This document shows, in pieces, positions 49,069 through 64,000 of a DNA stretch of 64,000 nucleotides. Source of the DNA: Arthrobacter crystallopoietes (GTDB lineage Bacteria > Actinomycetota > Actinomycetes > Actinomycetales > Micrococcaceae); contig NZ_CP018865.1 in NCBI RefSeq assembly GCF_002849715.1, positions 124,001-188,000 of the forward strand, given 5' to 3'. The position numbers and the translations under genes were made by a program. Position 1 is the stretch's first letter. Each line of letters begins with the position of its first letter. The notes under the pieces were generated by a model. That model saw only the letters and a list, made by a program, of their open reading frames with translations. It ran no database searches and was not told where the DNA came from.

Positions 49069-49159
49069 TGGGTTCCTTTCAATCTCGGACATTGCCGGAG
49101 CATACGGGCATCACCGAATGCGGGAAGTGCAGCCTGATTTCTGCAACGGGTCCAACCCC

Positions 49160-49200
49160 TATTCGTATACTAATGTATTCGAATGTCTTAGAGTGTATAT
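49160..49200. promoter_or_regulatory. GTATAC box 2 between moaE and moaA
   Basis: TCGTATACTA contains GTATAC at 49165-49170 (-10-like TATACT), followed by an AT-rich segment with ATTCGAAT and TGTATATA directly before the moaA ATG. No Shine-Dalgarno is visible before moaA, so initiation may be leaderless or weak. Confidence 0.4.
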
Positions 49201-50322
49201 ATGAAAACGTTTCTCGGCCTGCCCGCGCTGCAATCCCTTCGTCTGGGCGGGGCCGGCGCTTCAACGACAGATGCCCTCTCCGGCGCCCTGGGCCTCGCGG
49301 ACCGTTACGGTAGGCGAGCAACCGACTTGCGCCTGTCGCTGACCGACAAATGCAATCTGCGCTGCACCTACTGCATGCCGGCCGGGGGACTCGAATGGCT
49401 CAGCAGGCAGCAACTGATGTCCGCCAGTGAAATTGCCCGTCTTGTACGCATAGGGGTGGAACAGCTAGGAATCCGGGAACTGCGGTTGACTGGAGGGGAG
49501 CCTCTGGTGCGCCCGGATTTGGTCGAGATTGTTGGAACAATCCGCACCAATCATCCGAAGCTTCCGATATCGCTCACTACCAACGGGTTGGGTTTGGACA
49601 AGAAGGCACGGGCGCTAAAGGACGCCGGCCTGACCCGTATCAACGTCTCGCTTGATTCACTCCACCGGGACACCTTTGCCCAGCTGACCCGCCGCCCGCT
49701 CCTGGACCGGGTGCTGGCGGGCATCGAAGAGGCTGGTCGAGTAGGACTGGAGCCGGTTAAGGTCAACTCCGTCCTGATGCGTGGAATCAATGACGGGGAG
49801 GCTTCCCGCTTGCTGGACTGGGCATTGACCAACGGGTTTGAGCTGCGCTTTATCGAGCAGATGCCTTTGGACGCTGATCACAGCTGGACCAGAGAGGATA
49901 TGATAACCGCGGCTGAGATCCGGGGACTGCTGGAACGTGATTTCGTCCTTACGCCGGATCCGGGACGGCGCGACGGCGCGCCGGCCGAGCGTTGGAAAGT
50001 GCGCAGGCGCCAATCAGATGGAACAGCGGATGGCCGGATAGCCGGCAGCGTCGGAATTATCGCATCCGTCACGGAACCATTTTGTGCCGACTGCCGTCGG
50101 ACTCGCGTTACCGCCGAAGGCAGGGTGCGCAGCTGTCTCTTCTCCCACGAGGAATCGGACTTGTTGCAGCTCCTTCGTTCAGGCGCAGATGACGCGGCAG
50201 TAGCGTGGCGCTGGCAGGAAGCGATGTGGGGCAAGCCAAAAGCCCATGGAATGGATCACACGGGGCTGGACGCCCCGGAGTATGTACAGCCGCAACGCAC
50301 AATGAGCGCCATCGGGGGCTGA
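49201..50322 (+). CDS. moaA: GTP 3',8-cyclase MoaA
   Basis: A 373-residue radical SAM enzyme, first step of molybdenum cofactor synthesis. The N-terminal 4Fe-4S motif is KCNLRCTYCMPAGG; LRLTGGEPLVRPD follows. The C-terminal cluster motif is FCADCRRTRVTAEGRVRSCL, and the required C-terminal Gly-Gly is present (SAIGG). moaC and moeA are not in the window and must be provided elsewhere. Confidence 0.95.
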   Translation: MKTFLGLPALQSLRLGGAGASTTDALSGALGLADRYGRRATDLRLSLTDKCNLRCTYCMPAGGLEWLSRQQLMSASEIARLVRIGVEQLGIRELRLTGGEPLVRPDLVEIVGTIRTNHPKLPISLTTNGLGLDKKARALKDAGLTRINVSLDSLHRDTFAQLTRRPLLDRVLAGIEEAGRVGLEPVKVNSVLMRGINDGEASRLLDWALTNGFELRFIEQMPLDADHSWTREDMITAAEIRGLLERDFVLTPDPGRRDGAPAERWKVRRRQSDGTADGRIAGSVGIIASVTEPFCADCRRTRVTAEGRVRSCLFSHEESDLLQLLRSGADDAAVAWRWQEAMWGKPKAHGMDHTGLDAPEYVQPQRTMSAIGG

Positions 50323-50362
50323 GAACCCCCGACCAGGCAACAACAAACACTGAACAGATGGG

Positions 50363-50635
50363 ATGCCAATGCTGATCCGATATTTCGCAGCCGCGCAGGC
50401 AGCAGTCGGCGTCGGGCAGGAAACGCTGGAGTTTCCGGACGGGTCCACCCTCACCGATGTAATTAACCGTCTTACGGAGTTGTACCCTGCGGCCAAAGCG
50501 GGCGGCCGACCATCCCTGGCTAACATCGTCGCCAGGAGCAGTTTCCTGCGTAATGAAGTAGCCTTGCGTGACTTCCACATGCCCTTGCACCCCACGGACG
50601 TCATCGATATCCTCCCGCCCTTCGCAGGTGGATAG
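50363..50635 (+). CDS. moaD: Molybdopterin synthase sulfur carrier MoaD
   Basis: A 90-residue ubiquitin-like protein (LIRYFAAAQAAVGVGQETLE; LHPTDVIDILPPFAGG) ending in the Gly-Gly that is activated and thiocarboxylated. ATG at 50363 or 50369 is possible. It follows moaA by 40 bases and is probably co-transcribed. Confidence 0.92.
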   Translation: MPMLIRYFAAAQAAVGVGQETLEFPDGSTLTDVINRLTELYPAAKAGGRPSLANIVARSSFLRNEVALRDFHMPLHPTDVIDILPPFAGG

Positions 50636-50658
50636 CGGGAGATAGGCCCCGGGCTCTG

Positions 50659-51249
50659 CTAAGGGAGGAGGTCCTTGAGTCCGCGCAGGTCCTCCGGTGT
50701 ATCGACGTCCAACCCCGATCCAAGGTCGCTGCAGTCGACATAGTCGACCACGGAAGGGTGCCGAAGCATGAATGCTCTCGCTCCTGAATCGCCTGCTGCG
50801 GTGGCTGCTGCTTTACGCGCCAAGGCGGCGTCTAACAGCACAGGGTGTCCGGGGTTTCCTGCATAGAGGGGCACCGTGATTCGCCCCGGCCCGTGGTCGC
50901 CGCGGAGACGGGCAATAATTTCCTTCGAGACGTCCGGCTGATCCACGACAGAGACAAGGATGTCAGCCTCCCCGAGGATGGAGGCCGCGATGCCGACGCG
51001 AAATGAACTCGCCATGCCGCTGGCCCACTGCGGATTGACGACAACCCGCATGTCCGCCAGGTGCGCAGTGCGCTGCACCTCATCGGCCTCGCACCCCAGA
51101 ACCACGGAAACGGGCGAACAGCCAGCTTCCTGCAGCGTGCGGCCGAGCCGGTCAATAAAATACTCATTCCGATAGCGCAGCAGGGCCTTGGGTCCCGCCG
51201 CCATGCGGCGGCCAGCACCCGCGGCAAGTATTAGCCCGGCCAGTCCCAT
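50659..51249 (-). CDS. mocA: MocA-like molybdenum cofactor cytidylyltransferase
   Basis: A 196-residue NTP transferase of the MobA/MocA type. The signature is LILAAGAGRRMAAGPKALL and the metal-binding part is ILVSVVDQPDVS. MocA makes the cytosine dinucleotide form used by xanthine-dehydrogenase-family hydroxylases; MobA makes the guanine form. The neighbourhood (hydroxylase genes at 56-60 kb) favours MocA. GGGAGG precedes ATG 51249. Confidence 0.85.
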   Translation of the reverse strand: MGLAGLILAAGAGRRMAAGPKALLRYRNEYFIDRLGRTLQEAGCSPVSVVLGCEADEVQRTAHLADMRVVVNPQWASGMASSFRVGIAASILGEADILVSVVDQPDVSKEIIARLRGDHGPGRITVPLYAGNPGHPVLLDAALARKAAATAAGDSGARAFMLRHPSVVDYVDCSDLGSGLDVDTPEDLRGLKDLLP

Positions 51250-51480: not shown

Positions 51481-52170
51481 CTAACTCGGCGTGCCCCGGG
51501 TCCAGAGCTTGAGGCGGATGTCCCGGGACTCGGTGAAATGCTCGGTAGCGAGGCTCGCAGCCAGATCACCGTTGCGCGACTCGATCGCCTCTACAAGAGC
51601 CGTATGCTGCTCGTTGGCGCGTCCCCAACGCCCGGGGAAGGACAGGGTGGTCGCAGGATACCTGCCCAGATGCAGGCTGAGCCGGTCAAGCAGATCCACC
51701 AGTGAACGGTTATGGCTCGCGCGCCAGATGGCACGGTGGAAACTGTCGTTTGCCGCCGCCATGGCTTCCAGGTCTCCGGTCTCCATCGTCTTCATACGAT
51801 CTGCCAGTTCGTGCATTTGCAGCAGATCGTGGAAGCTGCGCCGTTCTGATGCCACCCGTGCCGCGCTTGCTTCAAGAACAATGCGGGTCTCGTACAGGTC
51901 GAGCACGTCCTCCGGACTGTCATCACGCACGACCAAGCCACGGTCTGTGCGAACCACGATCCCGTCCTGCTCCAAGCGCGTCAACGCCTCCCGGATCGGC
52001 GTACGACTGACCTCACACCACTCCGCCAGGGCAGACTCGACCAGCGAGTCCCCCGGCTTGAATTCGCCCACAACAATGGCCTGCTTGATACGTTCGTACG
52101 CACCACGGCGACGATCGGCACTAAAAGAGCGGCCGACGCGTTCTGCAGCCGCCTGCTTCCTGTTTGCCAT
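51481..52170 (-). CDS. GntR/FCD-family regulator of cluster 3
   Basis: A 229-residue regulator with an N-terminal winged helix (AYERIKQAIVVGEFKPGDSL; EVSRTPIREALTRLEQDGIV) and a C-terminal FCD domain (LYETRIVLEASAARVASER; NDSFHRAIWRAS, with the metal-binding histidines). ATG 52170 follows GGAGG by 8 bases; an ATG 15 bases upstream lacks a site. It is divergent from the thioesterase and importer genes. The GTATAC boxes in nearby promoters are candidate sites. Confidence 0.9.
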   Translation of the reverse strand: MANRKQAAAERVGRSFSADRRRGAYERIKQAIVVGEFKPGDSLVESALAEWCEVSRTPIREALTRLEQDGIVVRTDRGLVVRDDSPEDVLDLYETRIVLEASAARVASERRSFHDLLQMHELADRMKTMETGDLEAMAAANDSFHRAIWRASHNRSLVDLLDRLSLHLGRYPATTLSFPGRWGRANEQHTALVEAIESRNGDLAASLATEHFTESRDIRLKLWTRGTPS

Positions 52171-52275
52171 GAGTGAGACCTCCACCTGCGCGGCTAGCGT
52201 CGAATTACTTTCTGACAGTGACTTTTACAGAATCACGGCCTACCCCCATGCACAATAGCTGCGCACATTTCAGTG

Positions 52276-52305
52276 TACCCTAGTATGCATGATTATGCAT
52301 TCCAA
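52276..52305. promoter_or_regulatory. Inverted repeat before the thioesterase gene
   Basis: ATGCAT-GATT-ATGCAT (within 52280-52303) is an exact inverted repeat in the GntR/thioesterase intergenic region, preceded by AGT. It is a possible operator for the divergent pair. Confidence 0.4.
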
Positions 52306-52317
52306 GGAACTGCATCC

Positions 52318-52725
52318 ATGATGCCGGAAACCTCCGCACTCAACGCGCTTGAAGCCCAAGGCATCACGTTGATCAGGGCAAGCAACGGATCCGCGGATGC
52401 CGAAATGACGGTGAGGCCCGAGAGCCTCAACCAGCAGGGAAGCGTCCAGGGCGGCATATACGCAGTGTTTGCCGATGCCGTCGCCGGTTGGGCAACCGAA
52501 TCGGCTCTGGGTGCGCCCCGCTACGTAACCGTGGACTTCTCCTGCAACCTGACAGGCACTGCGCGCGCAGGGGACCTGCTGCGGGGGCGGGCCTCACTTG
52601 TACATCAAGGTCGACGAACGGTGGTGCAGAACGTCGAAGTTGACCGGATCCGGACAGCGTCCGAACCGCGCCGAATCGCCTGGTTTACGTGCACCCAGCT
52701 GGTCCTCGAGGCCGAACCGGAATAG
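52318..52725 (+). CDS. PaaI-type hotdog thioesterase
   Basis: A 135-residue hotdog-fold protein (LNQQGSVQGGIYAVFADAVAG with the helix that carries the catalytic acid; RYVTVDFSCNLTGTARAGDL). ATG 52318 is chosen because AAGGA lies 9 bases upstream. Family members hydrolyse acyl- or aroyl-CoA esters, which fits the acyl-CoA ligase at the end of the cluster. Confidence 0.85.
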   Translation: MMPETSALNALEAQGITLIRASNGSADAEMTVRPESLNQQGSVQGGIYAVFADAVAGWATESALGAPRYVTVDFSCNLTGTARAGDLLRGRASLVHQGRRTVVQNVEVDRIRTASEPRRIAWFTCTQLVLEAEPE

Positions 52726-52788
52726 GTCCCGACTTTGTTTCCGGAACGTTAAAATTCCCGCACGACACATTAATTTCCCAAAAACCCT

Positions 52789-52816
52789 TGCATCCCCCTG
52801 TGTGCATCCGTATACA
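52789..52816 (+). promoter_or_regulatory. Promoter with GTATAC box 3, leaderless start
   Basis: TTGCAT (52789-52794), a 17-bp spacer and TATACA (52811-52816) form a good promoter. The predicted transcription start is about 7-9 bases further on, at or next to the ATG at 52825, so the mRNA should be leaderless. GTATAC is at 52810-52815, over the -10. Confidence 0.55.
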
Positions 52817-52824
52817 GTAGCGGA

Positions 52825-53625
52825 ATGAGAATCCCTCAGACCAAATTGCTTCGACTCGGTGCAGCCGGTCGCGCGTTCAGTTGGCCGGGCATCGTCATGG
52901 CACTGGCGATCTGGGAGTTCGCTCCGCGGTTAAACCTGGTGCCCTCCGGCTACGTTCCGCCGGCCTCGAGCGTCCTGGCGGATTTTGCCTCGATTCTGAA
53001 GACCAATGCCTTTTGGGACGACGTCGGATCAACGATGCTGGCCTGGGCTGTAGGTATGTGGATCGCGGTGATCGCCGCTGTAGCAGCCGGCATGCTCATC
53101 GGCAGCAATAAGTATGCCTATCGGGCCACCCGGTTCCTGATCGAGTTCCTACGTCCCATACCTGCCGTGGCCCTGATCCCGTTGGCGGTGCTGATCTTTG
53201 GCATCACGACCGAGATGAAAGTGTTTCTGGTCGTATTCGCGACCTTCTGGCCCATTTTGTTCCAAGCCGTATACGGCGTCCGCGAGACCGATGCGGTCGC
53301 CCGCGATACTGCCCGGTCATTCGGCTTCAGCCGCGCGGAAATTTTCTGGCATGTCACCCTCCCAAGCGCGGCACCCTCGATTGCTACCGGGATACGGCTT
53401 GCCTCCGCACTGGCAATTGTGATTGCCGTCACCGCAGAACTGATCTCGGGTGGCCCGGGGCTGGGTACGGCGATCCTTGCCGCACAGAGCGCAGGCTCGA
53501 ATGTGCGTATGTACGCACTCATCTTCGCGGCCGGCCTGCTCAGCTACATCGTAGGCACACTGATCGTCGTCATCGAGCGCCGGCTCCTGCGCTGGCATCC
53601 GAGCCACAGAAAGGCAGTCGCATGA
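52825..53625 (+). CDS. ABC importer permease 1 (cluster 3)
   Basis: A 266-residue NitT/TauT-type permease with about six helices and an EAA loop (TARSFGFSRAEIFWHVTLPSA). No Shine-Dalgarno precedes it, in keeping with a leaderless transcript. It overlaps the second permease gene by 4 bases. Confidence 0.9.
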   Translation: MRIPQTKLLRLGAAGRAFSWPGIVMALAIWEFAPRLNLVPSGYVPPASSVLADFASILKTNAFWDDVGSTMLAWAVGMWIAVIAAVAAGMLIGSNKYAYRATRFLIEFLRPIPAVALIPLAVLIFGITTEMKVFLVVFATFWPILFQAVYGVRETDAVARDTARSFGFSRAEIFWHVTLPSAAPSIATGIRLASALAIVIAVTAELISGGPGLGTAILAAQSAGSNVRMYALIFAAGLLSYIVGTLIVVIERRLLRWHPSHRKAVA

Positions 53626-54401
53626 ACGGACGCAAATTCGGCCTGGTCGGTCTAGAAATAGCAACCACCGTCGCCGTAGTCATCGCATGGTTCGTGCTGT
53701 CGGCCGGCTCGACCTCTCTGTTTTTCCCTCCCCTTACAGCCATCCTGGAGAGGTTCGGTGAAGTGTGGATCGGACCGGGCTTTACCGATCACGTTCTGCC
53801 AAGCCTCGGCCGGATGTTCGCCGGATATGCGATAGCAGCCGTGGTCGGCATAAGCGTCGGACTAGCGATCGGGATGTCGTCCTGGGTCCGCCGGCTTCTG
53901 GGACCAGGCATCGACTTCCTGCGCGCACTGCCCGCAGTGGTCCTGGTGCCGTTCGGCCTCATCGTTTTCGGGGTCGGGGCACCAATGCAGATCTTCGTCA
54001 TCGCCCTTGGCTGTTCTTTCCCCATCATTCTCAACGCCGCCGCAGGTGCCGCGTCGGTAGAGCCACTCCTGCACGACGTGACGCGCAGCTTCCGCTTCTC
54101 GACAGCTGAGCGGCTCTTCCGGGTCGTGCTTCCTGCGGCCGGCCCCAGCATCTTCGCAGGCCTGCGCGCCAGCCTCGCGCTGGCGCTCATCCTCATGGTG
54201 GTGGCTGAAATGGTGGGAAGCACCAACGGGATCGGCTACTCGATCCTGGAGTCACAACGGATGTTTGTGATGGCCGACATGTGGGCCGGGCTGCTAATGC
54301 TCGGCATCGTCGGCTACACCGTCAACCTGATCTTCCTCGGTGTCGAGCGCTTTGCGCTGCAATGGCACCACGGCCTGAAAGCGAGCACACGGGACGCATG
54401 A
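53622..54401 (+). CDS. ABC importer permease 2 (cluster 3)
   Basis: A 259-residue permease of the same family (EAA loop TRSFRFSTAERLFRVVLPAA). It should form the channel with permease 1. The start overlaps the previous stop (ATGA) and the end overlaps the ATPase start. Confidence 0.9.
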   Translation: MNGRKFGLVGLEIATTVAVVIAWFVLSAGSTSLFFPPLTAILERFGEVWIGPGFTDHVLPSLGRMFAGYAIAAVVGISVGLAIGMSSWVRRLLGPGIDFLRALPAVVLVPFGLIVFGVGAPMQIFVIALGCSFPIILNAAAGAASVEPLLHDVTRSFRFSTAERLFRVVLPAAGPSIFAGLRASLALALILMVVAEMVGSTNGIGYSILESQRMFVMADMWAGLLMLGIVGYTVNLIFLGVERFALQWHHGLKASTRDA

Positions 54402-55201
54402 CACTCATTCACGAAACGACCCCGCAGAATACCTCCACCATGATCATCGATGTCAAGAACTTGCAGAAGCGTTACGGACAGGGACCAGGTTCCCACCTTG
54501 CAGTAAGCGATGTCAGCTTCAACGCGGCAGAGGGAGAGTTTGTCTGCATCGTTGGGCCATCCGGCTGCGGCAAGACCACTCTGCTGCGTTGCCTCTCGGG
54601 CCTGATGCCGCCTACGGGGGGCGTAGTCAAGCTCCACGGCCAGGCCATCTCGGGTCCGCCGCGGCAGATGGGCCTGGTATTCCAGGAATACAACCGGTCT
54701 CTGTTCCCTTGGACCTCGGTACGCCGGAACGTCGAACTGCCTGTGCGCAAACTGCTCGGCAAGGCGGAACGCACCGTTGCTGTCCAGGAGGCGCTGGCTG
54801 CCGTCGGGCTGCAGGGCCACGAGGACAAGTACCCGTGGCAGCTCTCGGGCGGAATGCAGCAGCGCGTGGCAATCGCCCGTGCCATCGCCTACCGACCCGA
54901 AATCCTGCTCATGGACGAGCCGTTCGCTTCCGTCGATGCACAGACCCGGATCGAACTGGAAGACCTGCTGCTCGACCTCAAGGCCAAGTACGGGATCACG
55001 ATCGTCTTCGTGACCCATGACATCGACGAAGCCGTGTATCTGGCCGACCGGATTGTAGTCCTCAGCTCGCCGCCGTGCGTCGTCCGCGAGCAGCTCAACG
55101 TCCCGCTGCCACGGCCACGAAGCCAGACAGAAACGAAGGCGCTCCCGGCCTACAGCGAGTTGCGCAACCACGTCTATAACCAGATCGTCGGCACCCACTA
55201 G
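54398..55201 (+). CDS. ABC importer ATPase (cluster 3)
   Basis: A 267-residue ATPase: Walker A GPSGCGKTT, Q-loop FQEYNRSLFPW, signature LSGGMQQR, Walker B ILLMDEPFASVD and switch FVTHDIDEA. ATG 54398 overlaps the permease stop; a longer frame lies inside that gene. Confidence 0.95.
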   Translation: MTLIHETTPQNTSTMIIDVKNLQKRYGQGPGSHLAVSDVSFNAAEGEFVCIVGPSGCGKTTLLRCLSGLMPPTGGVVKLHGQAISGPPRQMGLVFQEYNRSLFPWTSVRRNVELPVRKLLGKAERTVAVQEALAAVGLQGHEDKYPWQLSGGMQQRVAIARAIAYRPEILLMDEPFASVDAQTRIELEDLLLDLKAKYGITIVFVTHDIDEAVYLADRIVVLSSPPCVVREQLNVPLPRPRSQTETKALPAYSELRNHVYNQIVGTH

Positions 55202-55252
55202 CATCGCCGCCCGCGACCGCCCAACCTCACACGGCCAGAAAGGTAACACACA

Positions 55253-56227
55253 ATGAATCACCGACTCGCCATAACCGCCACCTTGGCAGCGGCTGCATTG
55301 CTCGTCACCGGGTGCGGCGGATCGGCGTCTTCCGACAACGCCGACGGCTCTGCTGCGACCGAGATTACCGTCGGTACGCTCCCGATCGTCACCAACACGG
55401 TCCTGGCTCTGGGCGTTGAAAAGGGATTTTTCACGGAAGAAGGCCTCGATGTGGAACTGGCAAGCGCCCAAGGTGGCGCCGCCTTGGTGCCGGCGGTGGT
55501 CAGCGGGCAGTATGACTTCGCCTTCTCCAATAACGTGTCGTTGATGACAGCGCGGGCCCAGGGACTTCCGGTCAAAATTGTGGCTGCGGCCAGCAGTGCC
55601 GGTGAGAATCCCGCTCCCCCGGACGAAGCAATTGTGGTCGGCCCCGGTAATGACGCCGAATCGCTTGCAGACCTCGACGGCAGCACCGTTGCAGTCAACG
55701 GCCTCAAGAACATGGTCGAAGTAGCCGACCGGGTGGCCCTGGAAAAGGCCGGGGTCGACCTGAAAACCGTCGACTTCATCGAAGTGGGATTCCCGGACAT
55801 GCCTGCAGCGCTCAGGAGCGGACGCATCGACGTCGCCCACGTTGCAGAACCGTTCCTCAGCCAGGCCGTCAAGGATGGTGCTCGCATTCTCTCGGCCCCC
55901 TACCGGGAGGTCCTGCCCGACGTCTTCATGTCATCGTGGTTCACCAGCGACCAGTTCCTTGCCCAGGATCCCGATACGGTCGCCGCCTTCCAGCGGGCAC
56001 TTGAGAAATCGCGGGCCTACGCGTCCGAGAATCCTGACGAGGTCCGCGACTATATCCCGGAGTTTTTGGGAATGGAGACCACGGTTGCCCAGGAGATCAC
56101 GCTGGGCAACTGGCCAGCGGGCATGCCTGACGAGGAATCCCTCAAAGCATGGCATGAGGCATGCGTCAAATACGGAGTGTTCTCGGCGGATAAGCTCCCG
56201 GATCCGACCGAGATCCTGGCCGACTAA
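55253..56227 (+). CDS. ABC importer substrate-binding lipoprotein (cluster 3)
   Basis: A 324-residue binding protein. The signal peptide ends in a lipobox LVTGC and is followed by a Gly/Ser/Asp linker. The ligand domain (TVGTLPIVTNTVLALGVEKG) is of the NMT1/SsuA type. AGAAAGG precedes ATG 55253. In cluster 3 it presumably binds the substrate of the molybdenum hydroxylase. Confidence 0.9.
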   Translation: MNHRLAITATLAAAALLVTGCGGSASSDNADGSAATEITVGTLPIVTNTVLALGVEKGFFTEEGLDVELASAQGGAALVPAVVSGQYDFAFSNNVSLMTARAQGLPVKIVAAASSAGENPAPPDEAIVVGPGNDAESLADLDGSTVAVNGLKNMVEVADRVALEKAGVDLKTVDFIEVGFPDMPAALRSGRIDVAHVAEPFLSQAVKDGARILSAPYREVLPDVFMSSWFTSDQFLAQDPDTVAAFQRALEKSRAYASENPDEVRDYIPEFLGMETTVAQEITLGNWPAGMPDEESLKAWHEACVKYGVFSADKLPDPTEILAD

Positions 56228-56267
56228 TCCTGATCGCCGACCGAAATTCCTGCGAAAGGAACTTCCC

Positions 56268-57140
56268 ATGCAAGTGCTAAGACCTACGAGCGTTACCGAA
56301 ACCTTGACGCTGCTCAACGAATCGGATGACGGGACAAAAATAGTCGCCGGCGGCACCGCGCTCATGCTTATGCTGCGCAATGGCCTGATCTTTCCCACTG
56401 ACCTCATTGCACTCGAGCGCATCGAGGGCCTGGACTATATTGAGACCGACGACACCACGATCCGCATCGGCGCCCTCACGACGCTGCGCACCATCGAGCG
56501 GTCGGAGGAACTGCAGTCCCTGCTACCGACGCTCACCCAGGCGCTCGACATGGTCGCCAACCACCGCGTGCGCAACCGGGCAACCATCGCCGGCAACGTG
56601 TGCGAGGCCGATTATGCTTCCGACCCTCCTGCCATTCTGTCCACGATTGGCTGCCAGGTACGCGTCCTGGGTCCCCGGGGCGAGCGGGTTATCGCGCTGA
56701 CGGACCTGCTGGTGGACTATTACCAAACGAGCCTGGATCATAACGAGCTTGTTGTGGAAGTGATCATCCCCCGGCCGGACGCCCGTACCCGGACCAACTA
56801 CCTCAAGTACGTCAGCCGGTCCTCCGAGGACAGACCCTGCGTCGGGGTCGCAGCTTCGCTCTCACTCGATGGCACCGGCCGGTGCCTGGGCGTGGATGTG
56901 CAGGTCGCCGGCGCGACGGCGACTCCTTTCAGCGTCCCGTCCGTCCTCCGGGAGTGCGTCGGCGCCGATTCCGGCGATGCGGCCTGGGACCATATCGCCC
57001 ACTCCTACGCGGAGAGCATCGAACCCATTGACGACGCCCGCGGCTCTGCAGCGTACCGAAAACGTGTGACCGGAATACTGGTCGGCCGGGCGCTGCGGCA
57101 GATGAATGACGACTACGTGAACGGAGCGACGAAGCTGTGA
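56268..57140 (+). CDS. Molybdenum hydroxylase FAD subunit (CoxM/XdhB type)
   Basis: A 290-residue FAD-binding subunit of the xanthine dehydrogenase family. FAD motifs: IVAGGTALMLMLRNG and VRNRATIAGNVCEADYASDP. ATG 56268 is preceded by GAAAGGAA; a longer frame lies inside the binding-protein gene. It passes electrons from the Fe-S subunit to an acceptor. The next gene starts by GTGA overlap. Confidence 0.92.
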   Translation: MQVLRPTSVTETLTLLNESDDGTKIVAGGTALMLMLRNGLIFPTDLIALERIEGLDYIETDDTTIRIGALTTLRTIERSEELQSLLPTLTQALDMVANHRVRNRATIAGNVCEADYASDPPAILSTIGCQVRVLGPRGERVIALTDLLVDYYQTSLDHNELVVEVIIPRPDARTRTNYLKYVSRSSEDRPCVGVAASLSLDGTGRCLGVDVQVAGATATPFSVPSVLRECVGADSGDAAWDHIAHSYAESIEPIDDARGSAAYRKRVTGILVGRALRQMNDDYVNGATKL

Positions 57141-59470
57141 CTGACCACGCTGTGATCAACGAGTCCGGGGCCATCAGAGTTGCCCCGGGCTCCAGCATCG
57201 GCACCCCGACCGACATGTATGAAGCCCGTTCCCGAGTGGACGGAAGCATCAATTACGCGCTCAATGCCGAAGTTCCGGGCATGGTTCACGCCGCAATCCT
57301 GCACAGCACCGTGCCTCATGCCGAAATAATCTCCATCGACGTTGCCGCGGCCGAGCAACTCAAAGGCGTTGTCGCCGTCCTCACTGCGGCAGACTTCGAT
57401 GCGCCCGGCGCCCCCAGACGCCACTTCGGACCCGTCATCAACGACCAGCCGGTGATCTGCGGCCGTAAGGTGCGCTTCACCGGTGACCCGGTGGCCGCAG
57501 TGGTCGCCGAGACGGTGGAGATCGCGCGGGAAGCCGTCGCACTGATCGAGGTGGAATACAACGAACTGCCCGTCGTTGCCTCCATCGACGACGCGCTCGA
57601 CACCGATGCCGTGCATGTGCACGACCGGCCGCCGCGGCCACGGGAACGCAGCTATTCCGACATCAAGCTCCTGGGCCGGGAGGGCAACGTGTGCACGAAG
57701 TTCCAGGTGCGCAAGGGCGACGTCGACCGAGCGTTCGCAGAGGCGGACGTGGTCGTCGAAGACATCTATCACAGCCCCGCCGTCGAACACGTCACCATGG
57801 AACCCCACGTGGTCCTGGCCACCTTCGATCATGGGAAACTGGATGTCCTGACCAGCAGCCAGGCGCCGTTCGCCGTCCGCGACACGCTGTGTGAAATGTT
57901 TAGCCTGCCCGCCTCGAAAGTCCGGGTTACCGTACCTCCCATCGGGGGCGGTTACGGAGGCAAAACCTATGCCAAGTTCGAACCGATCACCGCGGCCCTG
58001 GCCTGGAAGTGCCGCAGGCCGGTGAAACTCGTGCTGACGCGGGAGGAAGAATTTTCCACTACGACCAAGCACGCCGCGCGAATCCACATGCGCTCGGCCG
58101 TGATGAACGACGGGACCATCATCGGCCGTGACGTCGTCGTATACTTCAACGGCGGAGCCTATGCCGACATCAGCCCCCGGCTGATCAAGAACGGCGGTTA
58201 CAGCACGGCGGGGCCGTACAGGATCCCCAACGTCCGGATAGACTCCTACGCGCTCTACACCAACCAGGTCCCGGCAGGCGCCTACCGCGGATACGGTGTG
58301 TCCCAAGCCGCCTGGGCCTACGAGAGCCAAATGGACCAGATTGCGGCCGCCCTTGGCATGGACCCCGTCGAACTGCGGCACAAAAACCTACTGCGGGCCG
58401 GCGACGAATTTGCCACCGGCGAGGTCATGACCGAGGCGACCTACGGCGAGCTGCTCGACATGGCCGCCGACGCCGTCTCCTGGTCCGACGGGATCCGGGA
58501 AACCGGCTCCTCCGACCGGGTCCGGGCAAAAGGGCTGGCGGTGATCCTGAAATCGACCATCACCCCATCGACGACGCATGCAGCTGTACGGCTGGACGCG
58601 GATGGGTCCGTCCAAGTACTCACCTCGTCCATTGAGATGGGCCAGGGAGCACACACCGTGCTGGCCCAGTTCGCGGCTCAGGCCCTGGAGGTGGACATCA
58701 GCCACGTCAATGTGACCACCCCTGACACGGCCTATACCCCGTACGACCAAACAACCAGCTCCAGCCGGACGACCCGTGCCATGGGTGGCGCCGTCACCAA
58801 GGCGGCCCACGAAGTCCGCGACAAGCTCTTCGAACGCGCGGCGCCGCTGCTGGGCGTGACCGGAGACAAGCTGCGGCTGCACCAAGGAAGGGTCGAGGTC
58901 ATTGACGTGCCGGAAACCAGCCTCAGCATCGAGGAGGTCTTCCAGGAAACGCGAGTAGGCAGCATTCTCGGTGAGGGCGAGGTGATCACTTCGGGTGGCC
59001 TGGATCCCGAGACAGGACAGGGGCTGGCCAGCGACCACTGGCACCAAGGAAGCGCCGCCGTGGAGCTCGAGGTCGATCTGGGCACCGGAAAGGTGTACCT
59101 CAACCATGTGTATGCCGCGGCGCACGCCGGGACGGTGATCAATCCCAAGCTGGCACGGCTGCAGATGCATGGCAGCGTCGTCTTCGGCATCGGTCATGCG
59201 CTGTATGAGGAGTTAATCTTCGAGGACGGCATGCTCACAAACCCCAACTTGTCCGACTACGCGATTACGACCATGGGAGACATGCCGCACACCCTTGAGA
59301 TCGACCTGCTCGAGGACGAAGGCGCCTCAACCATTCACGGCCTTGGCGAGACGGTGCTGCCGCCGGTGATCGCAGCAATAGGCAACGCGGTCGCCAACGC
59401 CACCGGCCACCGCGTACGGCGGCTCCCCATCACGCCCGAACGAGTTATTGAAGCCATGGAGGCACGATGA
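57137..59470 (+). CDS. Molybdenum hydroxylase large subunit (XDH/CoxL family)
   Basis: A 777-residue catalytic subunit. Cofactor-binding segments include SSQAPFAVRD, PPIGGGYGGKTYAKFEP, the Arg-containing GAYRGYGVSQAAWAYESQMD and the MGQGAHTVLAQFAAQAL loop. The base-catalyst glutamate is in HGLGETVLPP near residue 750. There is no VAYRCSFR-type loop as in true CO dehydrogenase, so hydroxylation of an N-heterocycle or aldehyde is more likely. GTG 57137 overlaps the previous stop. Subunit order FAD - Mo - FeS is one of the common orders. Confidence 0.93.
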   Translation: MTDHAVINESGAIRVAPGSSIGTPTDMYEARSRVDGSINYALNAEVPGMVHAAILHSTVPHAEIISIDVAAAEQLKGVVAVLTAADFDAPGAPRRHFGPVINDQPVICGRKVRFTGDPVAAVVAETVEIAREAVALIEVEYNELPVVASIDDALDTDAVHVHDRPPRPRERSYSDIKLLGREGNVCTKFQVRKGDVDRAFAEADVVVEDIYHSPAVEHVTMEPHVVLATFDHGKLDVLTSSQAPFAVRDTLCEMFSLPASKVRVTVPPIGGGYGGKTYAKFEPITAALAWKCRRPVKLVLTREEEFSTTTKHAARIHMRSAVMNDGTIIGRDVVVYFNGGAYADISPRLIKNGGYSTAGPYRIPNVRIDSYALYTNQVPAGAYRGYGVSQAAWAYESQMDQIAAALGMDPVELRHKNLLRAGDEFATGEVMTEATYGELLDMAADAVSWSDGIRETGSSDRVRAKGLAVILKSTITPSTTHAAVRLDADGSVQVLTSSIEMGQGAHTVLAQFAAQALEVDISHVNVTTPDTAYTPYDQTTSSSRTTRAMGGAVTKAAHEVRDKLFERAAPLLGVTGDKLRLHQGRVEVIDVPETSLSIEEVFQETRVGSILGEGEVITSGGLDPETGQGLASDHWHQGSAAVELEVDLGTGKVYLNHVYAAAHAGTVINPKLARLQMHGSVVFGIGHALYEELIFEDGMLTNPNLSDYAITTMGDMPHTLEIDLLEDEGASTIHGLGETVLPPVIAAIGNAVANATGHRVRRLPITPERVIEAMEAR

Positions 59471-59985
59471 ATGAAATGAATGAGGAGATCTCGGTAACTT
59501 GTCGGATAAACGGGGAGGACGTAGCGTTGCACGGCGACCCCGCCGGTTCGACAGTATCGGTGCTGAGGGCACGCGGGCTGTTCGGAGTGAGGGAAACCTG
59601 CGGTTTGGGTGTCTGCGGCACCTGCACCGTGCTGCTCAATGGCGAACCGGTGAGCAGCTGCATCCTGCCGATGTATGCCCTGGATGGCGGTACGATCCGG
59701 ACGGTGGAGGGTGCCGCATCCGGAGACACGCTCAGCGCACTCCAGCAGCAGTTCATCGAGTCCCAGGCCTTCCAGTGTTCGTTCTGCACGCCGGGATTCC
59801 TGGCCAGCGCCCAGGCCCTGCTCGACCAGACCGAGGGCGAACTGACACGCGAGCAGGTCGAGAGCGGGTTGCAGGGCCACCTGTGCCGTTGCGGCTCCTA
59901 CGAAGCCATCAGTGAGGCAGTCCGCATCTGCAGCCGCAACCGCGGCTGCGCCGCGGACGCATCGACCGGGTGCCCGGCGTCCTGA
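59467..59985 (+). CDS. Molybdenum hydroxylase 2Fe-2S subunit
   Basis: A 172-residue small subunit with two 2Fe-2S clusters: C45, C50, C53 and C65 (CGLGVCGTC) and C104, C107, C140 and C142 (CSFCTPGF, CRCGSY). It relays electrons from molybdenum to FAD. The Cys-containing C-terminal tail beyond residue 155 is unusual. Confidence 0.94.
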   Translation: MNEMNEEISVTCRINGEDVALHGDPAGSTVSVLRARGLFGVRETCGLGVCGTCTVLLNGEPVSSCILPMYALDGGTIRTVEGAASGDTLSALQQQFIESQAFQCSFCTPGFLASAQALLDQTEGELTREQVESGLQGHLCRCGSYEAISEAVRICSRNRGCAADASTGCPAS

Positions 59986-60004
59986 ACCGGCGAAGGGAAG
60001 CGCG

Positions 60005-60943
60005 ATGACCTGGGCCCATGAACGGCCGTTTGCCCCGATCCATGACCGCCTGCCGTACGACGCCATCGTCGACCGCCCGGCCCCGCGGTGGCCGGGCGGT
60101 GCCCGACTGGCGGTCTGGGTCGTGCCGAACATCGAGCATTACGAGTACCTGCCCCCGGCCGGCGCGGTGGACCCCTACCCGCGCACGCCGCATCCGGATG
60201 TTCGAAAGTACACGTATCACGACTACGGCAACCGGGTCGGGTTCTGGCGAATGCTGGAGGTTCTCGACCGGTATGAGATCCCCTGCACGACATCCCTCAA
60301 CGTTGCGGTCCTCGATCACTACCCGGCGATCGCCGAGGCCATGTCCGAGCGGGGTTGGGACCACATGAGCCACGGACTCTACAACACCCGTTATCTGACA
60401 GGAATGGGCGAGACCGCCGAGCGGTCCTTCCTGGAGGACTGCAATGCCGTGCTGCGCCGGCACACGGGCCGCAGCTTTTCCGGCATGCTGGGACCGAACA
60501 TTACCGGCAATGCGTGGACGCCCGACCTGATGGCCGAGCTCGGCATGACCTTTCATGCCGATTGGGTGCATGACGAGCGGCCAGCCCCGCTCCTCACCCG
60601 GTCCGGCGGCCCGCTGGTCGCGCTGCCGTATACTTACGCGCTCAACGACGCGCCTCTGCTGATGCGGTCGCACGTCGAAGGGCCCGACTATGCCGGATAC
60701 CTGACAGCCCAGTTCGACGAGCTCTACGAACGGGACGAGAACTGCGGACGGATGATGTGTCTGTCATTGCACCCCTTTACGATCGGTCAACCGCACCGCG
60801 CCGGCCACTTCGACCGTGTCCTGGCCCATCTGCGCGCACATGACGGCGTATGGATCGCAACGGCGTCGGACATCGTCGACCACTACCTCCGGACCTCCTA
60901 CGCACACGACCTGCAACGTGCGACCGAGGCGGTATGTGCATGA
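60005..60943 (+). CDS. Polysaccharide-deacetylase/PuuE-like hydrolase 1
   Basis: A 312-residue protein of the polysaccharide deacetylase fold, in the subgroup that includes PuuE allantoinase and related cyclic-amide hydrolases. Visible family segments: ARLAVWVVPNIEHYE, GNRVGFWRMLEVLDRYEIP, GWDHMSHGLYNTRYL and LSLHPFTIGQPHR, with histidines retained. ATG 60005 follows GAAGGGAAG. Beside a molybdenum hydroxylase it may open a lactam, imide or ureide ring; this is inference. Confidence 0.82.
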   Translation: MTWAHERPFAPIHDRLPYDAIVDRPAPRWPGGARLAVWVVPNIEHYEYLPPAGAVDPYPRTPHPDVRKYTYHDYGNRVGFWRMLEVLDRYEIPCTTSLNVAVLDHYPAIAEAMSERGWDHMSHGLYNTRYLTGMGETAERSFLEDCNAVLRRHTGRSFSGMLGPNITGNAWTPDLMAELGMTFHADWVHDERPAPLLTRSGGPLVALPYTYALNDAPLLMRSHVEGPDYAGYLTAQFDELYERDENCGRMMCLSLHPFTIGQPHRAGHFDRVLAHLRAHDGVWIATASDIVDHYLRTSYAHDLQRATEAVCA

Positions 60944-61869
60944 ACGCGCACGGACTCAACGTTGTCCGGCCGCCGCTGGCAGCCGAGCCTGGCTACGACC
61001 ATGGCTGGTTCCCCTACACTCCGCTCCCAACCAGGCGCCTGAACCATTGGCCGAACGGTTCAGGGCTGGCGTTGAGCATCATCTTGGATGTACGTGCGGC
61101 GGAGTGGGAGGACCCTGCACCAGCCGTCGGAGTGCCAGGCGGCCGCGGACCCGCGCCCTACCCGGATTTTCCCCGCATGTCCCACCTTGAGTTCGGGCAT
61201 CGTGTCGGGCTGTTCCGGCTGGCGTCCATCTGCGGAGAGGCCGGGATTCCGTGGGCTGCTGCCCTCGACGTCCTCACCGCCGAGCGCTATCCGCGGGTGC
61301 TCTCGCTGCTACAGGAACAGGCTGCCGAGATTCTGTCAGGCGGTTTGAGTTCCAGCAGGGCTATCAGCAGCCTGATGTCAGAGGCAGAGGAGAACGACTA
61401 TATCGCCCAGACCCTCAACCGGCTCGAGCGTGTAACCGGCTCAAGGCCGCGCGGCTGGATGAGCCCGCAGGGATCACAGTCCTTCCGCACGCCCGGGCTG
61501 CTGGGGCGCAACGGTGTCGCCTACGTCGCCGACTGGGCCAATGACGAACAGCCGTACGCCGTTACGGGTGCAGGTGACCTGTGGAGCCTGCCGGTGTCCT
61601 GGGAGCTCAGCGACCTGTCCGCGATGTTCATGCGGGGCCTCGGACCAGGATCCTACACCGGCGCCGTCCTCGAAGCCGTCGACGTCCTAGCCGCAGAAAG
61701 CCAAAGCTTGCCCCGGATGCTGTGCCTGCACCTGCACCCCTGGCTGAGCGGAGAGCCCTTCCGGGCACGCGCCGTCCGCGGACTCCTGGTGCAGCTTGCG
61801 GCCCGGGACGACATCTGGTGGACAACCCCCTCGGCCATCGTCGAGCACGGCCGGAGCGGGGCGCAATGA
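60940..61869 (+). CDS. Polysaccharide-deacetylase-like protein 2, altered site
   Basis: A 309-residue relative of the preceding protein, with the same plan: SGLALSIILDVRAAEWEDP, GHRVGLFRLASICGEAGIP, MSPQGSQSFRTPGLLGRNGV and LCLHLHPWLSGEPF. Where protein 1 has DHMSHGLYNTRY, this one has EILSGGLSSSRA, so the central His is lost. It may be a partner subunit or act on a different bond. ATG 60940 overlaps the previous stop, so the two are coupled. Confidence 0.78.
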   Translation: MNAHGLNVVRPPLAAEPGYDHGWFPYTPLPTRRLNHWPNGSGLALSIILDVRAAEWEDPAPAVGVPGGRGPAPYPDFPRMSHLEFGHRVGLFRLASICGEAGIPWAAALDVLTAERYPRVLSLLQEQAAEILSGGLSSSRAISSLMSEAEENDYIAQTLNRLERVTGSRPRGWMSPQGSQSFRTPGLLGRNGVAYVADWANDEQPYAVTGAGDLWSLPVSWELSDLSAMFMRGLGPGSYTGAVLEAVDVLAAESQSLPRMLCLHLHPWLSGEPFRARAVRGLLVQLAARDDIWWTTPSAIVEHGRSGAQ

Positions 61870-62861
61870 GCAAGCTACCCCGCGTCGCGCTGCTCTCCAC
61901 CGGCGGGACGATAGACGCGCTCGGGGCATCCCGCCTCGACCTGGCCTGGTACACGGAAACGAAGAACAGGCTGCCAGACGGAGCCCTCGTGGCCGCGCTG
62001 CCAGAACTTAAAACGGTTGCCGATGTCATCCAGGTACCCTTTGCGCGCATGCCAAGCTACGCATTGTCCACGGAGGACTGGTCGCTGCTCGCGACAACGG
62101 TCCAGCAACTCGCAGCCAGCGGCACGTTCGACGGCATTGTAGTCACCCACGGAACGAACACCCTCGAGGAAACCGCCTTTCTGCTGAGCCTAACGCTCAG
62201 CACCACCATCCCGATCGTACTGGTCGGAGCCATGCGCCCGGCGAACGGCCTGGGCAGCGACGGCATGATCAACCTGTTACAAGCAGTGCGTCTTGCCGCT
62301 TCGAAACCTGCCCGGGGGCAAGGGGTCCTGGTGCTGATCAACGACACAGTCTTCGCGGCCCGCGACGTCACCAAGTCCGCGACCTTCCGGGTTAACGCGT
62401 TCGCGGCACCCGGGCTCGGACCGCTGGGCCATGTGGATGCCGACGGCGAAATCCGGCTCACCCGCCGGCATGCCACCAACGCCGTCCCGGCCTTCGCCAT
62501 CGAGGACATCGCCCGGATGCCCAGGGTTGACGTCGTTGTCTCATACGTCGGCGCCGACGGAGTCCTGATCAAGGCTGCGGTTGCCGCCGGGGCGCGCGCC
62601 ATCGTCAGCGCCGGCACGGGCGCGGGACGTCCCACGCCTGCCGAGAGTGCCGCATTGAACGAAGCAGCGGCCGGAGGCGTCGTAGTATGCCAGGGCACCC
62701 GCGTGGCGTCCGGACGCGTCTCGCGCTCTCCTGCCATGAAAGCCGCAGGCCGGGTGGTTGCCCCCGCCATGGCTCCCTGGCAGGCGCGGATAGCCCTGGC
62801 CCTAGCGGTCCAACACACCACGGACAGCGAGGCGATCCAAATCACTCTGGACGCCCTCTGA
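61866..62861 (+). CDS. L-asparaginase-like amidohydrolase, Asp-to-Asn variant
   Basis: A 331-residue type II asparaginase-fold enzyme. The nucleophile Thr is in LSTGGTIDAL (T12), and the second motif is VVTHGTNTLEET (T97-N98). The usual motif is HGTDT; the Asp, which contacts the alpha-amino group of asparagine in characterised enzymes, is Asn here. GAMRPANGLGSDGMINLLQA and DVTKSATF are conserved. The enzyme probably cleaves an amide without an alpha-amino group, such as a half-amide formed by ring opening. ATG overlaps the previous stop. Confidence 0.85.
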   Translation: MSKLPRVALLSTGGTIDALGASRLDLAWYTETKNRLPDGALVAALPELKTVADVIQVPFARMPSYALSTEDWSLLATTVQQLAASGTFDGIVVTHGTNTLEETAFLLSLTLSTTIPIVLVGAMRPANGLGSDGMINLLQAVRLAASKPARGQGVLVLINDTVFAARDVTKSATFRVNAFAAPGLGPLGHVDADGEIRLTRRHATNAVPAFAIEDIARMPRVDVVVSYVGADGVLIKAAVAAGARAIVSAGTGAGRPTPAESAALNEAAAGGVVVCQGTRVASGRVSRSPAMKAAGRVVAPAMAPWQARIALALAVQHTTDSEAIQITLDAL

Positions 62862-62885
62862 ATACATAGATATGCTGGTTAATAC

Positions 62886-62900
62886 CGTTGTATACAAATT
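62886..62900 (+). promoter_or_regulatory. GTATAC box 4 before the CoxG-like gene
   Basis: TTGTATACAA (62888-62897) is a perfect 10-bp palindrome with GTATAC at 62890-62895, overlapping a -10-like TATACA. No convincing -35 is seen. AGGAG follows before ATG 62913. Confidence 0.45.
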
Positions 62901-62912
62901 GTCAGGAGCGCT

Positions 62913-63503
62913 ATGCAAATCGAAACAGAATTCACCATTGCCGCATCCCACGACCTGGTATGGGGCTACCTGCTGCGCACCGAGGAAGTCGTGGAGTGCA
63001 TCCCGGGCGCCCAAATCGATGAGAAGATCTCGGACGACGAGTACCGGGGCCATGTCACCATCAAGCTGGGACCTCTCGCACTGAGCTTGGAAGGCATTGC
63101 CACGATCAACGAGCGCGACCACGAGCAGAAAGTGCTCGTCATCTCGGGCAAGGCCAAGGACCGTCGGGGCCGCGGCGCTACGGATGCCTCCGTCACGGCC
63201 CGGGTCCATCCGGCCTCCGAAGGCTCCACCCGGGTTTCCATCGTGTCCGACCTGCGCGTCAGCGGCAAGATCGCCCAGTTCGGGCGCGGCGTGATGAAGG
63301 ATGTGTCGCAACGCCTTGCCGAGGAATTCGCCCGCAACCTTGAGGCACGCATATCCGCTGAATCCGCACCCGGCGGCCAACCAGGCGGCGATGCACCGGC
63401 AACAGCTGCCGCCCCCGCCCAAGCCATCGGCGGCATTGGTTTGATGGTCGGGGCGCTCACCCGCTCTGCCGGCCGCAGCGTATTCGGCCGTGACAAAAGC
63501 TGA
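62913..63503 (+). CDS. CoxG-like SRPBCC protein
   Basis: A 196-residue protein with an N-terminal START/SRPBCC domain (DLVWGYLLRTEEVVECIPGA; YRGHVTIKLGPLALSLEG), as in CoxG, and a C-terminal Gly/Ala/Pro linker ending in a hydrophobic segment (QAIGGIGLMVGALTRS). CoxG-type proteins accompany molybdenum hydroxylases and may anchor them to the membrane. AGGAG precedes the ATG. Confidence 0.87.
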   Translation: MQIETEFTIAASHDLVWGYLLRTEEVVECIPGAQIDEKISDDEYRGHVTIKLGPLALSLEGIATINERDHEQKVLVISGKAKDRRGRGATDASVTARVHPASEGSTRVSIVSDLRVSGKIAQFGRGVMKDVSQRLAEEFARNLEARISAESAPGGQPGGDAPATAAAPAQAIGGIGLMVGALTRSAGRSVFGRDKS

Positions 63504-63537
63504 CCGCGACTTCAGGGGACCAAAGGACAGGACGACG

Positions 63538-64000
63538 ATGATCAATCGAATGCTGACACGCCTTGACATGCCTCAGGCGCGTGAATATTACGACGCCGGC
63601 TACTGGCAGGACCAGACAATTTATGCCCGCGCGCGGGTTGCGGCATCCTGCAACCCCGACAAGGTGGCGGTGCTGGAACGCTCGCGCACCACCAGCTACC
63701 GTTGCCTGCTGGACGCTGCAGACCGGCTCGCCGGTCATCTCGCCGACGCCGGCCTGCAAAGCGGCGACCGCGTCGCCATCTGGCTGCCCAGCCGGGCCGA
63801 AGTGGCCGCAGCACTGCTGGCCTGCTCACGCAACGGATACATTGCCTGCCCGTCACTGCACCGCGACCACACTGTGGGAGACATTGTTGCGCTGGCCCAG
63901 CGGATGGGTGCCAAGGCCTTCATCGGTCAGCCCAACTACGGCGCCGACAGCGACCGCGCCGACATCTTCTCCCGCCTGAACGAGGTCGAAACCCTCCGGA
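63538..64000 (+). CDS. Acyl-CoA synthetase (AMP-forming), N-terminal part
   Basis: The frame from ATG 63538 stays open to the window edge (154 codons). It shows the N-terminal pattern of AMP-forming ligases: ARARVAASCNPDKVAVLERS, SYRCLLDAADRLAGHLADAG and LQSGDRVAIWLPSRAEVAAA. The core ATP motifs lie beyond the edge. It would activate the acid made by this cluster; substrate unknown. Confidence 0.85.
   Translation, partial: MINRMLTRLDMPQAREYYDAGYWQDQTIYARARVAASCNPDKVAVLERSRTTSYRCLLDAADRLAGHLADAGLQSGDRVAIWLPSRAEVAAALLACSRNGYIACPSLHRDHTVGDIVALAQRMGAKAFIGQPNYGADSDRADIFSRLNEVETLR

Follow-up and report, generated by a model that had tools for sequence, protein, structure and literature searches.

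A tightly packed operon in a 64,000-nucleotide stretch of Arthrobacter crystallopoietes DNA (hereafter the window; it spans positions 124001-188000 of a contig of 244,759 bases, one of three in a 5.03 Mb genome) is read here, with somewhat more confidence than doubt, as encoding a pathway, on a plasmid of the Arthrobacter group, for the catabolism of isonicotinate (pyridine-4-carboxylate), running via tricarballylate and using a two-subunit imide hydrolase. Genes for an importer, a molybdenum (Mo) hydroxylase, the polysaccharide-deacetylase-like proteins PuuE1 and PuuE2, the asparaginase-like protein AsnA, a CoxG-like protein and a coenzyme A (CoA) ligase follow one another in this operon, which extends past the end of the window into QOR-like reductase and XdhC genes, and four-base overlaps join the two permeases and the ATPase, CoxM, CoxL and CoxS, and PuuE1, PuuE2 and AsnA. 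A first-pass annotation of this DNA had proposed that the genes between 52318 and 64000 encode a possibly undescribed pathway for some N-heterocycle, through hydroxylation, ring opening by paired PuuE-like hydrolases, deamidation and, lastly, CoA activation. Open reading frames and family scans of the window recover the named genes in the order and on the strands given, and both gene content and conservation support hydroxylation, PuuE-type ring opening and deamidation of an N-heterocycle. The extent given was nevertheless too narrow, as a TcuA-family gene, Mo-cofactor genes (48637-51249) and the QOR and XdhC genes (to 67429) seem to be part of the operon's set.

It is the TcuA-family gene, absent from the list in that annotation, that narrows its generic heterocycle to a candidate substrate. 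The encoded flavoprotein (46199-47677, plus strand) passes the curated cut-off for flavin adenine dinucleotide (FAD)-dependent tricarballylate dehydrogenase (NCBIfam NF006130; 551.2 against 369 bits), thereby pointing to tricarballylate as an intermediate, and so to a ring whose carboxyl group is para to the nitrogen, as it is in isonicotinate. Judged from structure, a pyridine with a para-carboxyl group that is oxidised at both carbons adjacent to the nitrogen, reduced once and hydrolysed twice would yield the six-carbon tricarballylate.

We infer the substrates, the order of the steps and the heteromeric nature of the PuuE pair from the gene content, gene order, conservation, family scores and residue changes observed in these loci. 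The ABC importer, comprising two permeases (52825-53625 and 53622-54401) and an ATPase (54398-55201), all three named from sequence and phmmer matches rather than a family scan, and an NMT1/SsuA-type binding protein (55253-56227), would take up the ring acid; all four genes lie on the plus strand. The Mo-hydroxylase, encoded on the same strand as CoxM-type FAD (56268-57140), CoxL-type large (57137-59470) and CoxS-type 2Fe-2S (59467-59985) subunits, would then hydroxylate the ring carbons that flank the nitrogen, converting isonicotinate to 2-hydroxyisonicotinate and this to citrazinate (2,6-dihydroxyisonicotinate). The proposed citrazinate-CoA ligase (63538-65193, plus strand, the window ending at 64000; orthologues 59% and 61% identical) would form citrazinyl-CoA, the keto tautomer of which is an alpha,beta-unsaturated thioester, and the QOR/acrylyl-CoA-reductase-like enzyme (65190-66191 in window numbering, beyond its end) would reduce the double bond to give 2,6-dioxopiperidine-4-carbonyl-CoA. 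A hotdog-fold (PaaI-like) acyl-CoA thioesterase (52273-52725, plus strand; Pfam 4HBT at 39.8 bits, TIGR00369 above cut-off) would release CoA, leaving 2,6-dioxopiperidine-4-carboxylate (glutarimide-4-carboxylate). A heteromer of PuuE1 (60005-60943), the proposed catalytic subunit, and PuuE2 (60940-61869), its diverged partner, would open this cyclic imide to tricarballylate monoamide, from which the asparaginase-fold AsnA (61866-62861; all three on the plus strand) would remove ammonia; TcuA would oxidise the resulting tricarballylate to cis-aconitate, which enters the tricarboxylic acid (TCA) cycle. Support for the Mo enzyme would come from the Mo-cofactor genes, from CoxG and from XdhC. This order departs from the earlier one in placing CoA activation before ring opening, with the thioesterase after it, because the double bond of citrazinyl-CoA resembles that of an enoyl-CoA and would make the dihydroxypyridine reducible; citrazinate itself is, in its keto form, an unsaturated cyclic imide. 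Such a scheme explains the presence of a ligase, a reductase and a thioesterase within a set of ring-hydrolysis genes.

The chemistry is probably not undescribed. Kretzer, Frunzke and Andreesen reportedly found in 1993 that Mycobacterium sp. INA1 has a CoA ligase acting on citrazinate, and that its route leads through a dioxopiperidine carboxylate and tricarballylate to cis-aconitate; each of these steps has a candidate gene here. Such a pathway presumably needs two Mo-hydroxylases, as encoded by the related Pseudonocardia and metagenome-assembled genome (MAG) L060 clusters described below, whereas the window genome has one only. Papers that cite this work describe Mo-dependent hydroxylation of isonicotinate to the 2,6-dihydroxy product and a Mo-dependent isonicotinate dehydrogenase (PMC4548258, PMC6346535). 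What does look new, within reach of the searches, is the gene assignment for this pathway and the paired PuuE enzyme: neither a gene set for isonicotinate degradation nor a paired PuuE-like enzyme was found in the literature searched, from which most subscription journals were missing. A precedent for imide opening by a PuuE-type fold comes from another pyridine pathway, the hxn nicotinate pathway of Aspergillus nidulans, which has a cyclic imidase, HxnM, related to a Pseudomonas putida imidase, to HpPgdA and, more distantly, to PuuE, and an amide hydrolase, HxnN (PMC9304392). That pathway likewise starts with a Mo-hydroxylase and passes through a PuuE-related cyclic imidase acting on a 2,6-dioxopiperidine and then an amidase (PMC9304392). 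However, its ring acid and end product differ, HxnM is described there as a single protein, and HxnN resembles FAAH1, whereas the amidase here has the asparaginase fold.

The recurrence of the operon's gene order in other bacteria makes it more than a chance assembly, and answers the search for it that the first-pass annotation had suggested. Eight PuuE1 sequences were used to scan 84,980 genomes, giving at least 593 stretches and at least 552 confirmed relatives, with the best 80 loci analysed; genes in the fetched loci were called from open frames and phmmer matches to a reference set, such that genes outside that set are missed. In three of these best 80 loci PuuE1 was more than 60% identical to that of the window: in Pseudonocardia acidicola (L058), a Dactylosporangium MAG (L059) and an actinomycete MAG (L060). 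P. acidicola and MAG L060 keep the window's order of CoxM, CoxL, CoxS, PuuE1, PuuE2, AsnA, CoA ligase and QOR, except that neither has CoxG at the corresponding place. Identities between the window and Pseudonocardia proteins range from 51 to 76%, PuuE1 being the highest and PuuE2 the lowest, with 55-72% for the importer (52825-56227). The fragmented Dactylosporangium MAG has PuuE1, PuuE2 and AsnA on one contig; on another it holds XdhC-like, CoxE-like, AAA-ATPase, moaA, hotdog thioesterase, two ETF, TcuA-family and CoxL2 genes, the last of these matching the Pseudonocardia CoxL2 at 1097 bits. A search of 394 genomes of the class with the CoA ligase at an E value of 1e-120 found it in its own genome only, and among 295 genomes of the family PuuE1 was matched in its own genome and in two others at 45% identity, both with PuuE2 and a nearby isochorismatase-fold gene.

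The Mo-hydroxylase is placed in the XDH/CoxL family by the domains of its FAD, 2Fe-2S and Mo subunits, with MoCoBD_1, MoCoBD_2, Ald_Xan_dh_C, FAD_binding_5, CO_deh_flav_C and Fer2_2 all over their Pfam cut-offs, Fer2 scoring 24.6 against 21, and a GLGE motif at the C-terminus of CoxL. Its CoxL is 68% identical to that of Pseudonocardia and 66% to that of MAG L060, and it is proposed to be a (2-hydroxy)isonicotinate dehydrogenase. Xanthine or purine breakdown was considered and rejected, since the subunits score far under the xanthine dehydrogenase equivalog cut-offs for XdhA, XdhB and XdhC (495.9 against 780, 145.4 against 310 and 134.2 against 217 bits); another Mo enzyme of the same genome (G000:C1) stands in an apparent purine setting (L183, read from protein starts). 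Both P. acidicola and MAG L060 have a second CoxL-CoxS-CoxM set upstream of the first, and its CoxL is the closest paralogue, scoring 706 and 656 bits respectively against the window CoxL, with the next at 392 and 375. Such closely related sister enzymes fit two successive hydroxylations, the first of the substrate and the second of its hydroxylated form.

AsnA matches the N- and C-terminal Pfam asparaginase domains and misses the cut-off for type II L-asparaginase (TIGR00520; 247.7 against 314.3 bits). It shares with Escherichia coli AnsB the fold, as judged by sequence, and the catalytic residues T12, Y25, T89 and K162, and differs from it in carrying the changes D90N and N248R, which are found in all four cluster members. 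Asp90 of asparaginase is the residue that we take to bind the substrate's amino group, and the added Arg248 could hold the extra carboxylate of tricarballylate monoamide, the substrate proposed for AsnA. In a control set of four other homologues from these genomes, Asp90 is present in three and replaced by Asn in one partial sequence, and Arg248 is in none. Elsewhere among the fetched loci (to L141), an AsnA relative lies near a PuuE pair once, in Terrarubrum (L037).

TcuA-family proteins pass the NF006130 cut-off in all four genomes with the gene set, at 540.9 bits in Pseudonocardia, 580.8 in MAG L060 and 587.2 in the Dactylosporangium MAG in addition to the 551.2 of the window. The gene lies within the cluster in all three cases where the contig allows this to be tested, at about 12 kb from PuuE1 in the window, about 10 kb in Pseudonocardia and about 6 kb in MAG L060, against a base rate across the class of 18 in 296 genomes with any protein over the cut-off, its own genome included. 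The window protein is 62-63% identical to that of Pseudonocardia and 44-45% to that of MAG L060, and 84% to a copy on its own chromosome. While the plasmid copy stands near a ring-degradation operon, the chromosomal copy is close to a TctA-type tricarboxylate transporter gene, a setting that fits ordinary tricarballylate use. As the plasmid copy is nearer to its chromosomal counterpart than to the Pseudonocardia protein, TcuA may have joined this gene set on separate occasions.

Several observations weigh against the isonicotinate reading. Firstly, the window genome, when searched, was found to lack an orthologue of the second Mo-hydroxylase, having one such enzyme only; nor did tblastn with the Pseudonocardia and MAG proteins give a separate match in the window and its fetched flanks. 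This would be expected had the pathway been only partially acquired, with the first hydroxylase missing and the operon serving 2-hydroxyisonicotinate or citrazinate alone, or nothing, and the three IS110 genes upstream and the IS256-type gene right after the operon are consistent with such an event. However, the reading frames of the operon are uninterrupted and still overlap, and the similarity of the window TcuA to the strain's chromosomal copy suggests later use, such that a partial acquisition appears rather improbable. Secondly, the distinctive residues of AsnA are less exclusive than they might be. The partial homologue noted above (L192) likewise has Asn at position 90. Residues 59 and 283 differ among ordinary copies too and therefore prove nothing; the idea that AsnA has lost the whole amino-acid pocket was dropped for this reason.

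Thirdly, the TcuA gene is outside the operon, 5 kb upstream, and the family to which it belongs is common elsewhere. Among 43 whole genomes, hand-picked from the 77 loci L061-L137 and mostly from other phyla, 39 likewise encode a TcuA-family protein that passes the cut-off, which means that the presence of TcuA in a genome says little outside the window's class; the idea that TcuA is rare in genomes with a PuuE pair was accordingly given up. Many of these proteins outscore that of the window, many lie at 550-600 bits, like those of the clusters, and some, proteobacterial ones included, reach 630-760 (761 at most), so the family may extend beyond tricarballylate, and for its members at 550-600 bits the substrate is less certain than the name suggests. 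No TcuA-family gene was found near the PuuE pair in the other fetched loci (to L141; best match 115 bits), where flanks of up to 9 kb per side would miss a gene at 10-12 kb, as in Pseudonocardia and the window. This control lowers the weight on isonicotinate and raises that on a pathway for some other N-heterocycle, such as a pyrimidine, hydantoin, plain pyridine, pyrrole or maleimide, in which TcuA would be an accidental neighbour or act on another product. In favour of this alternative, PuuE pairs are also accompanied by a range of other genes (isochorismatase-fold amidases, LeuCD, CoA transferase, HyuAB), and the TcuA-family proteins of the 39 genomes do not lie within 9 kb of the pair. Yet the gene's place in the cluster in every testable case, set against its low rate in the class, remains informative, and a dihydroxypyridine carboxylate would suit two sister Mo-hydroxylases accompanied by a CoA ligase, a reductase and a thioesterase; another heterocycle is consequently judged unlikely, if the most serious competitor to isonicotinate. 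The difference between 39 of 43 and 18 of 296 could mean that those phyla are simply rich in the family, or that PuuE pairs and TcuA-family enzymes are truly connected, the latter often serving PuuE-pair pathways.

The ring opening proposed for isonicotinate rests on the PuuE pair, in which the first-pass annotation had seen two hydrolases; there are indeed two proteins, and they look like the catalytic and diverged subunits of one imide hydrolase. Neither is a PuuE allantoinase by the standard of TIGR03212, as PuuE1 scores 125 and PuuE2 83.5 bits against a cut-off of 424.6, and PuuE2 has no Pfam match at an E value of 0.001. The nearest solved structures to PuuE1 include the PuuE allantoinase 3cl6 (E 1.6e-24) and 1z7a, deposited as hypothetical (E 9e-26), and the nearest to PuuE2 is 3rxz, a polysaccharide deacetylase entry. 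Three residues in common with PuuE allantoinase, chosen from the alignment and presumably catalytic (E44, H123 and H256 in PuuE1 numbering), are kept in PuuE1, which differs from that enzyme in its far lower family score and its pairing; the window PuuE2 has lost two of the three (R44, G123). The PuuE1 members (A subunits) keep all three in 86 of 88 cases, the exceptions being one cut frame and one Met44. Among the PuuE2 members (B subunits), 43 of 88 keep all three and 43 have at least one changed (in five just Glu to Asp), two being unreadable, and both E44 and H123 are lost in the window protein and its three closest relatives. Tyr209 is present in 88 of 88 A and one of 88 B subunits, and His189 is replaced by Asn in 85 of 88 B subunits. 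The notion that PuuE2 is inactive everywhere was dropped in view of the 43 B subunits with all three residues.

The two genes also travel together. In the best 80 loci, the matched PuuE1 gene is directly followed by PuuE2 in 61, has it about 1-1.6 kb further on in three, is fused to it in one and stands alone in 15, and a tandem pair is found somewhere in 73 of these loci. The loci L033-L141 contain 84 tandem pairs, with the PuuE2 frame open within 20 nucleotides of the PuuE1 stop in 76. At L037, L085 and L098, PuuE1 is the better-scoring match for each of the two paired proteins. The natural fusion, in an Acidimicrobiaceae MAG (L097:8935-10986), spans 684 residues from stop to stop. In a midpoint-rooted tree of 86 chosen proteins, from 36 selected loci together with 10 lone or outgroup sequences, the A subunits fall into a single supported clade that also takes in one lone copy, and the B subunits split into three groups and a single row, which parallel the A groups without making up one clade; the window's branch lengths are 0.80 for B and 0.26 for A. 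A single origin of the A/B pair is likely, notwithstanding that the B subunits are not one clade in this tree. Of the 15 lone PuuE1-like genes, many are from Comamonadaceae (L114-L137) and 12 are in loci that also hold a tandem pair; they are perhaps a homomeric offshoot.

It is because the two genes are adjacent, co-diverging and once fused, with active-site residues kept in PuuE1 and often lost in PuuE2, that a two-subunit enzyme is preferred to two separate hydrolases working on successive cyclic intermediates. Separate enzymes would accord with the B subunits that keep all three residues, which need not be inactive everywhere, with the lone PuuE1-like genes and with the lack of a single B clade. 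They accord poorly with the equal number of B subunits altered at one or more of these positions, the window's at two, with A groups that are mirrored by B groups while themselves forming one supported clade, and with the rarity of any gap between the genes, and we regard them as distinctly improbable.

The partners of the two-subunit PuuE enzyme vary between bacteria. Elsewhere the pair is accompanied by isochorismatase-fold amidases together with LeuCD, isocitrate-lyase-family, HMG-CoA-lyase-like or CoA-transferase genes (L033, L034, L139), or by amidases and HyuAB (L140), and from this variety of amidase partners the shared theme of such loci seems to be ring opening followed by ammonia removal. 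A wider proposal is that PuuE1/PuuE2 is a widespread, exchangeable imide-opening module that works alongside several unrelated amidases and whose two subunits, the diverged one often lacking a functional active site, have diverged in step across Chloroflexota, Acidimicrobiia, Actinomycetes and Proteobacteria, and that the window holds the first gene set for isonicotinate via tricarballylate, for which an asparaginase became a tricarballylate-monoamide amidase and TcuA was recruited. Taken as a whole, this proposal is tentative, and we judge it slightly more likely to fail than to stand. If true, a biochemical pathway of about 30 years' standing would gain its genes, and one testable operon would predict each step from a pyridine acid, whose ring isoniazid shares, to the TCA cycle. 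A function would likewise be assigned to the paired polysaccharide-deacetylase-like proteins of SAR202 and further marine and soil bacteria, a large, uncharacterised family with members annotated as, for example, polysaccharide deacetylase or hypothetical protein.

The remaining genes of the set are accessory ones. A CoxG-like SRPBCC protein (62913-63503, plus strand; Pfam COXG at 71.5 bits) may help to assemble the Mo enzyme or to attach it to the membrane, and the XdhC-like gene (66248-67429 in window numbering) is beyond the window. The Mo-cofactor genes encode a MoaE-like molybdopterin synthase large subunit (48637-49092, minus strand; the best NCBIfam match being MoaE, at 66 against a cut-off of 175 bits), MoaA, a GTP 3',8-cyclase (49201-50322, plus strand; TIGR02666 at 356 against 284 bits), a MoaD-like ubiquitin-fold protein (50363-50635, plus strand; TIGR01687 at 45.9 bits, cut-off 49.5) and a MocA-type protein (50659-51249, minus strand; Pfam NTP_transf_3, MocA at 112 against 186 bits). 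The top NCBIfam score of this last protein is for the nicotine blue oxidoreductase NboR (209 against a cut-off of 260 bits), and it is probably a Mo-cofactor nucleotidyltransferase. A moaA gene is also near TcuA at locus L178, where a relative of the thioesterase is found (104 bits), as it is in MAG L060 (91 bits). Divergent from the operon is a GntR-family regulator (51481-52185, minus strand), with orthologues of 59% identity in the Pseudonocardia and MAG L060 clusters.

Two features make the contig look like a plasmid of the Arthrobacter group: a relaxase gene, and DNA at 23.5-47.9 kb of the window with matches in 70 plasmid records, of which 47 are from Arthrobacter, Paenarthrobacter or Pseudarthrobacter and the best covers 16% of the query. 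The cluster itself was not seen on other sequenced plasmids: a megablast search with the 48-64 kb segment returned three records, each with no more than 1% cover, and tblastn returned relatives only, all below 60% identity. Three IS110-family transposase genes (36625-37827, 42101-43306 on the minus strand, and 43800-45038) upstream, and one IS256/mutator-family gene (67527-68810 in window numbering, minus strand, beyond the window) right after the operon, flank the stretch from TcuA to XdhC, which thereby resembles a mobile catabolic island. Past the IS256-type gene, beyond the window (L002:7299-17291), is a second catabolic-looking set, with amidohydrolase, aldehyde dehydrogenase, flavin-reductase-like, CMD-family and luciferase-like monooxygenase genes, a PucR regulator and a BCCT transporter. 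Just upstream of the window (L169:11000-18450) are LeuC-LeuD-like and PEP-mutase/isocitrate-lyase-family genes and an ABC importer, resembling the maleate-type genes that adjoin PuuE pairs in other bacteria. Within the window, an isochorismatase-fold hydrolase gene (14339-14998) and sub-cut-off matches to the large subunits of Rieske-type ring-hydroxylating dioxygenases (17313-18773) are further signs of a catabolic plasmid.

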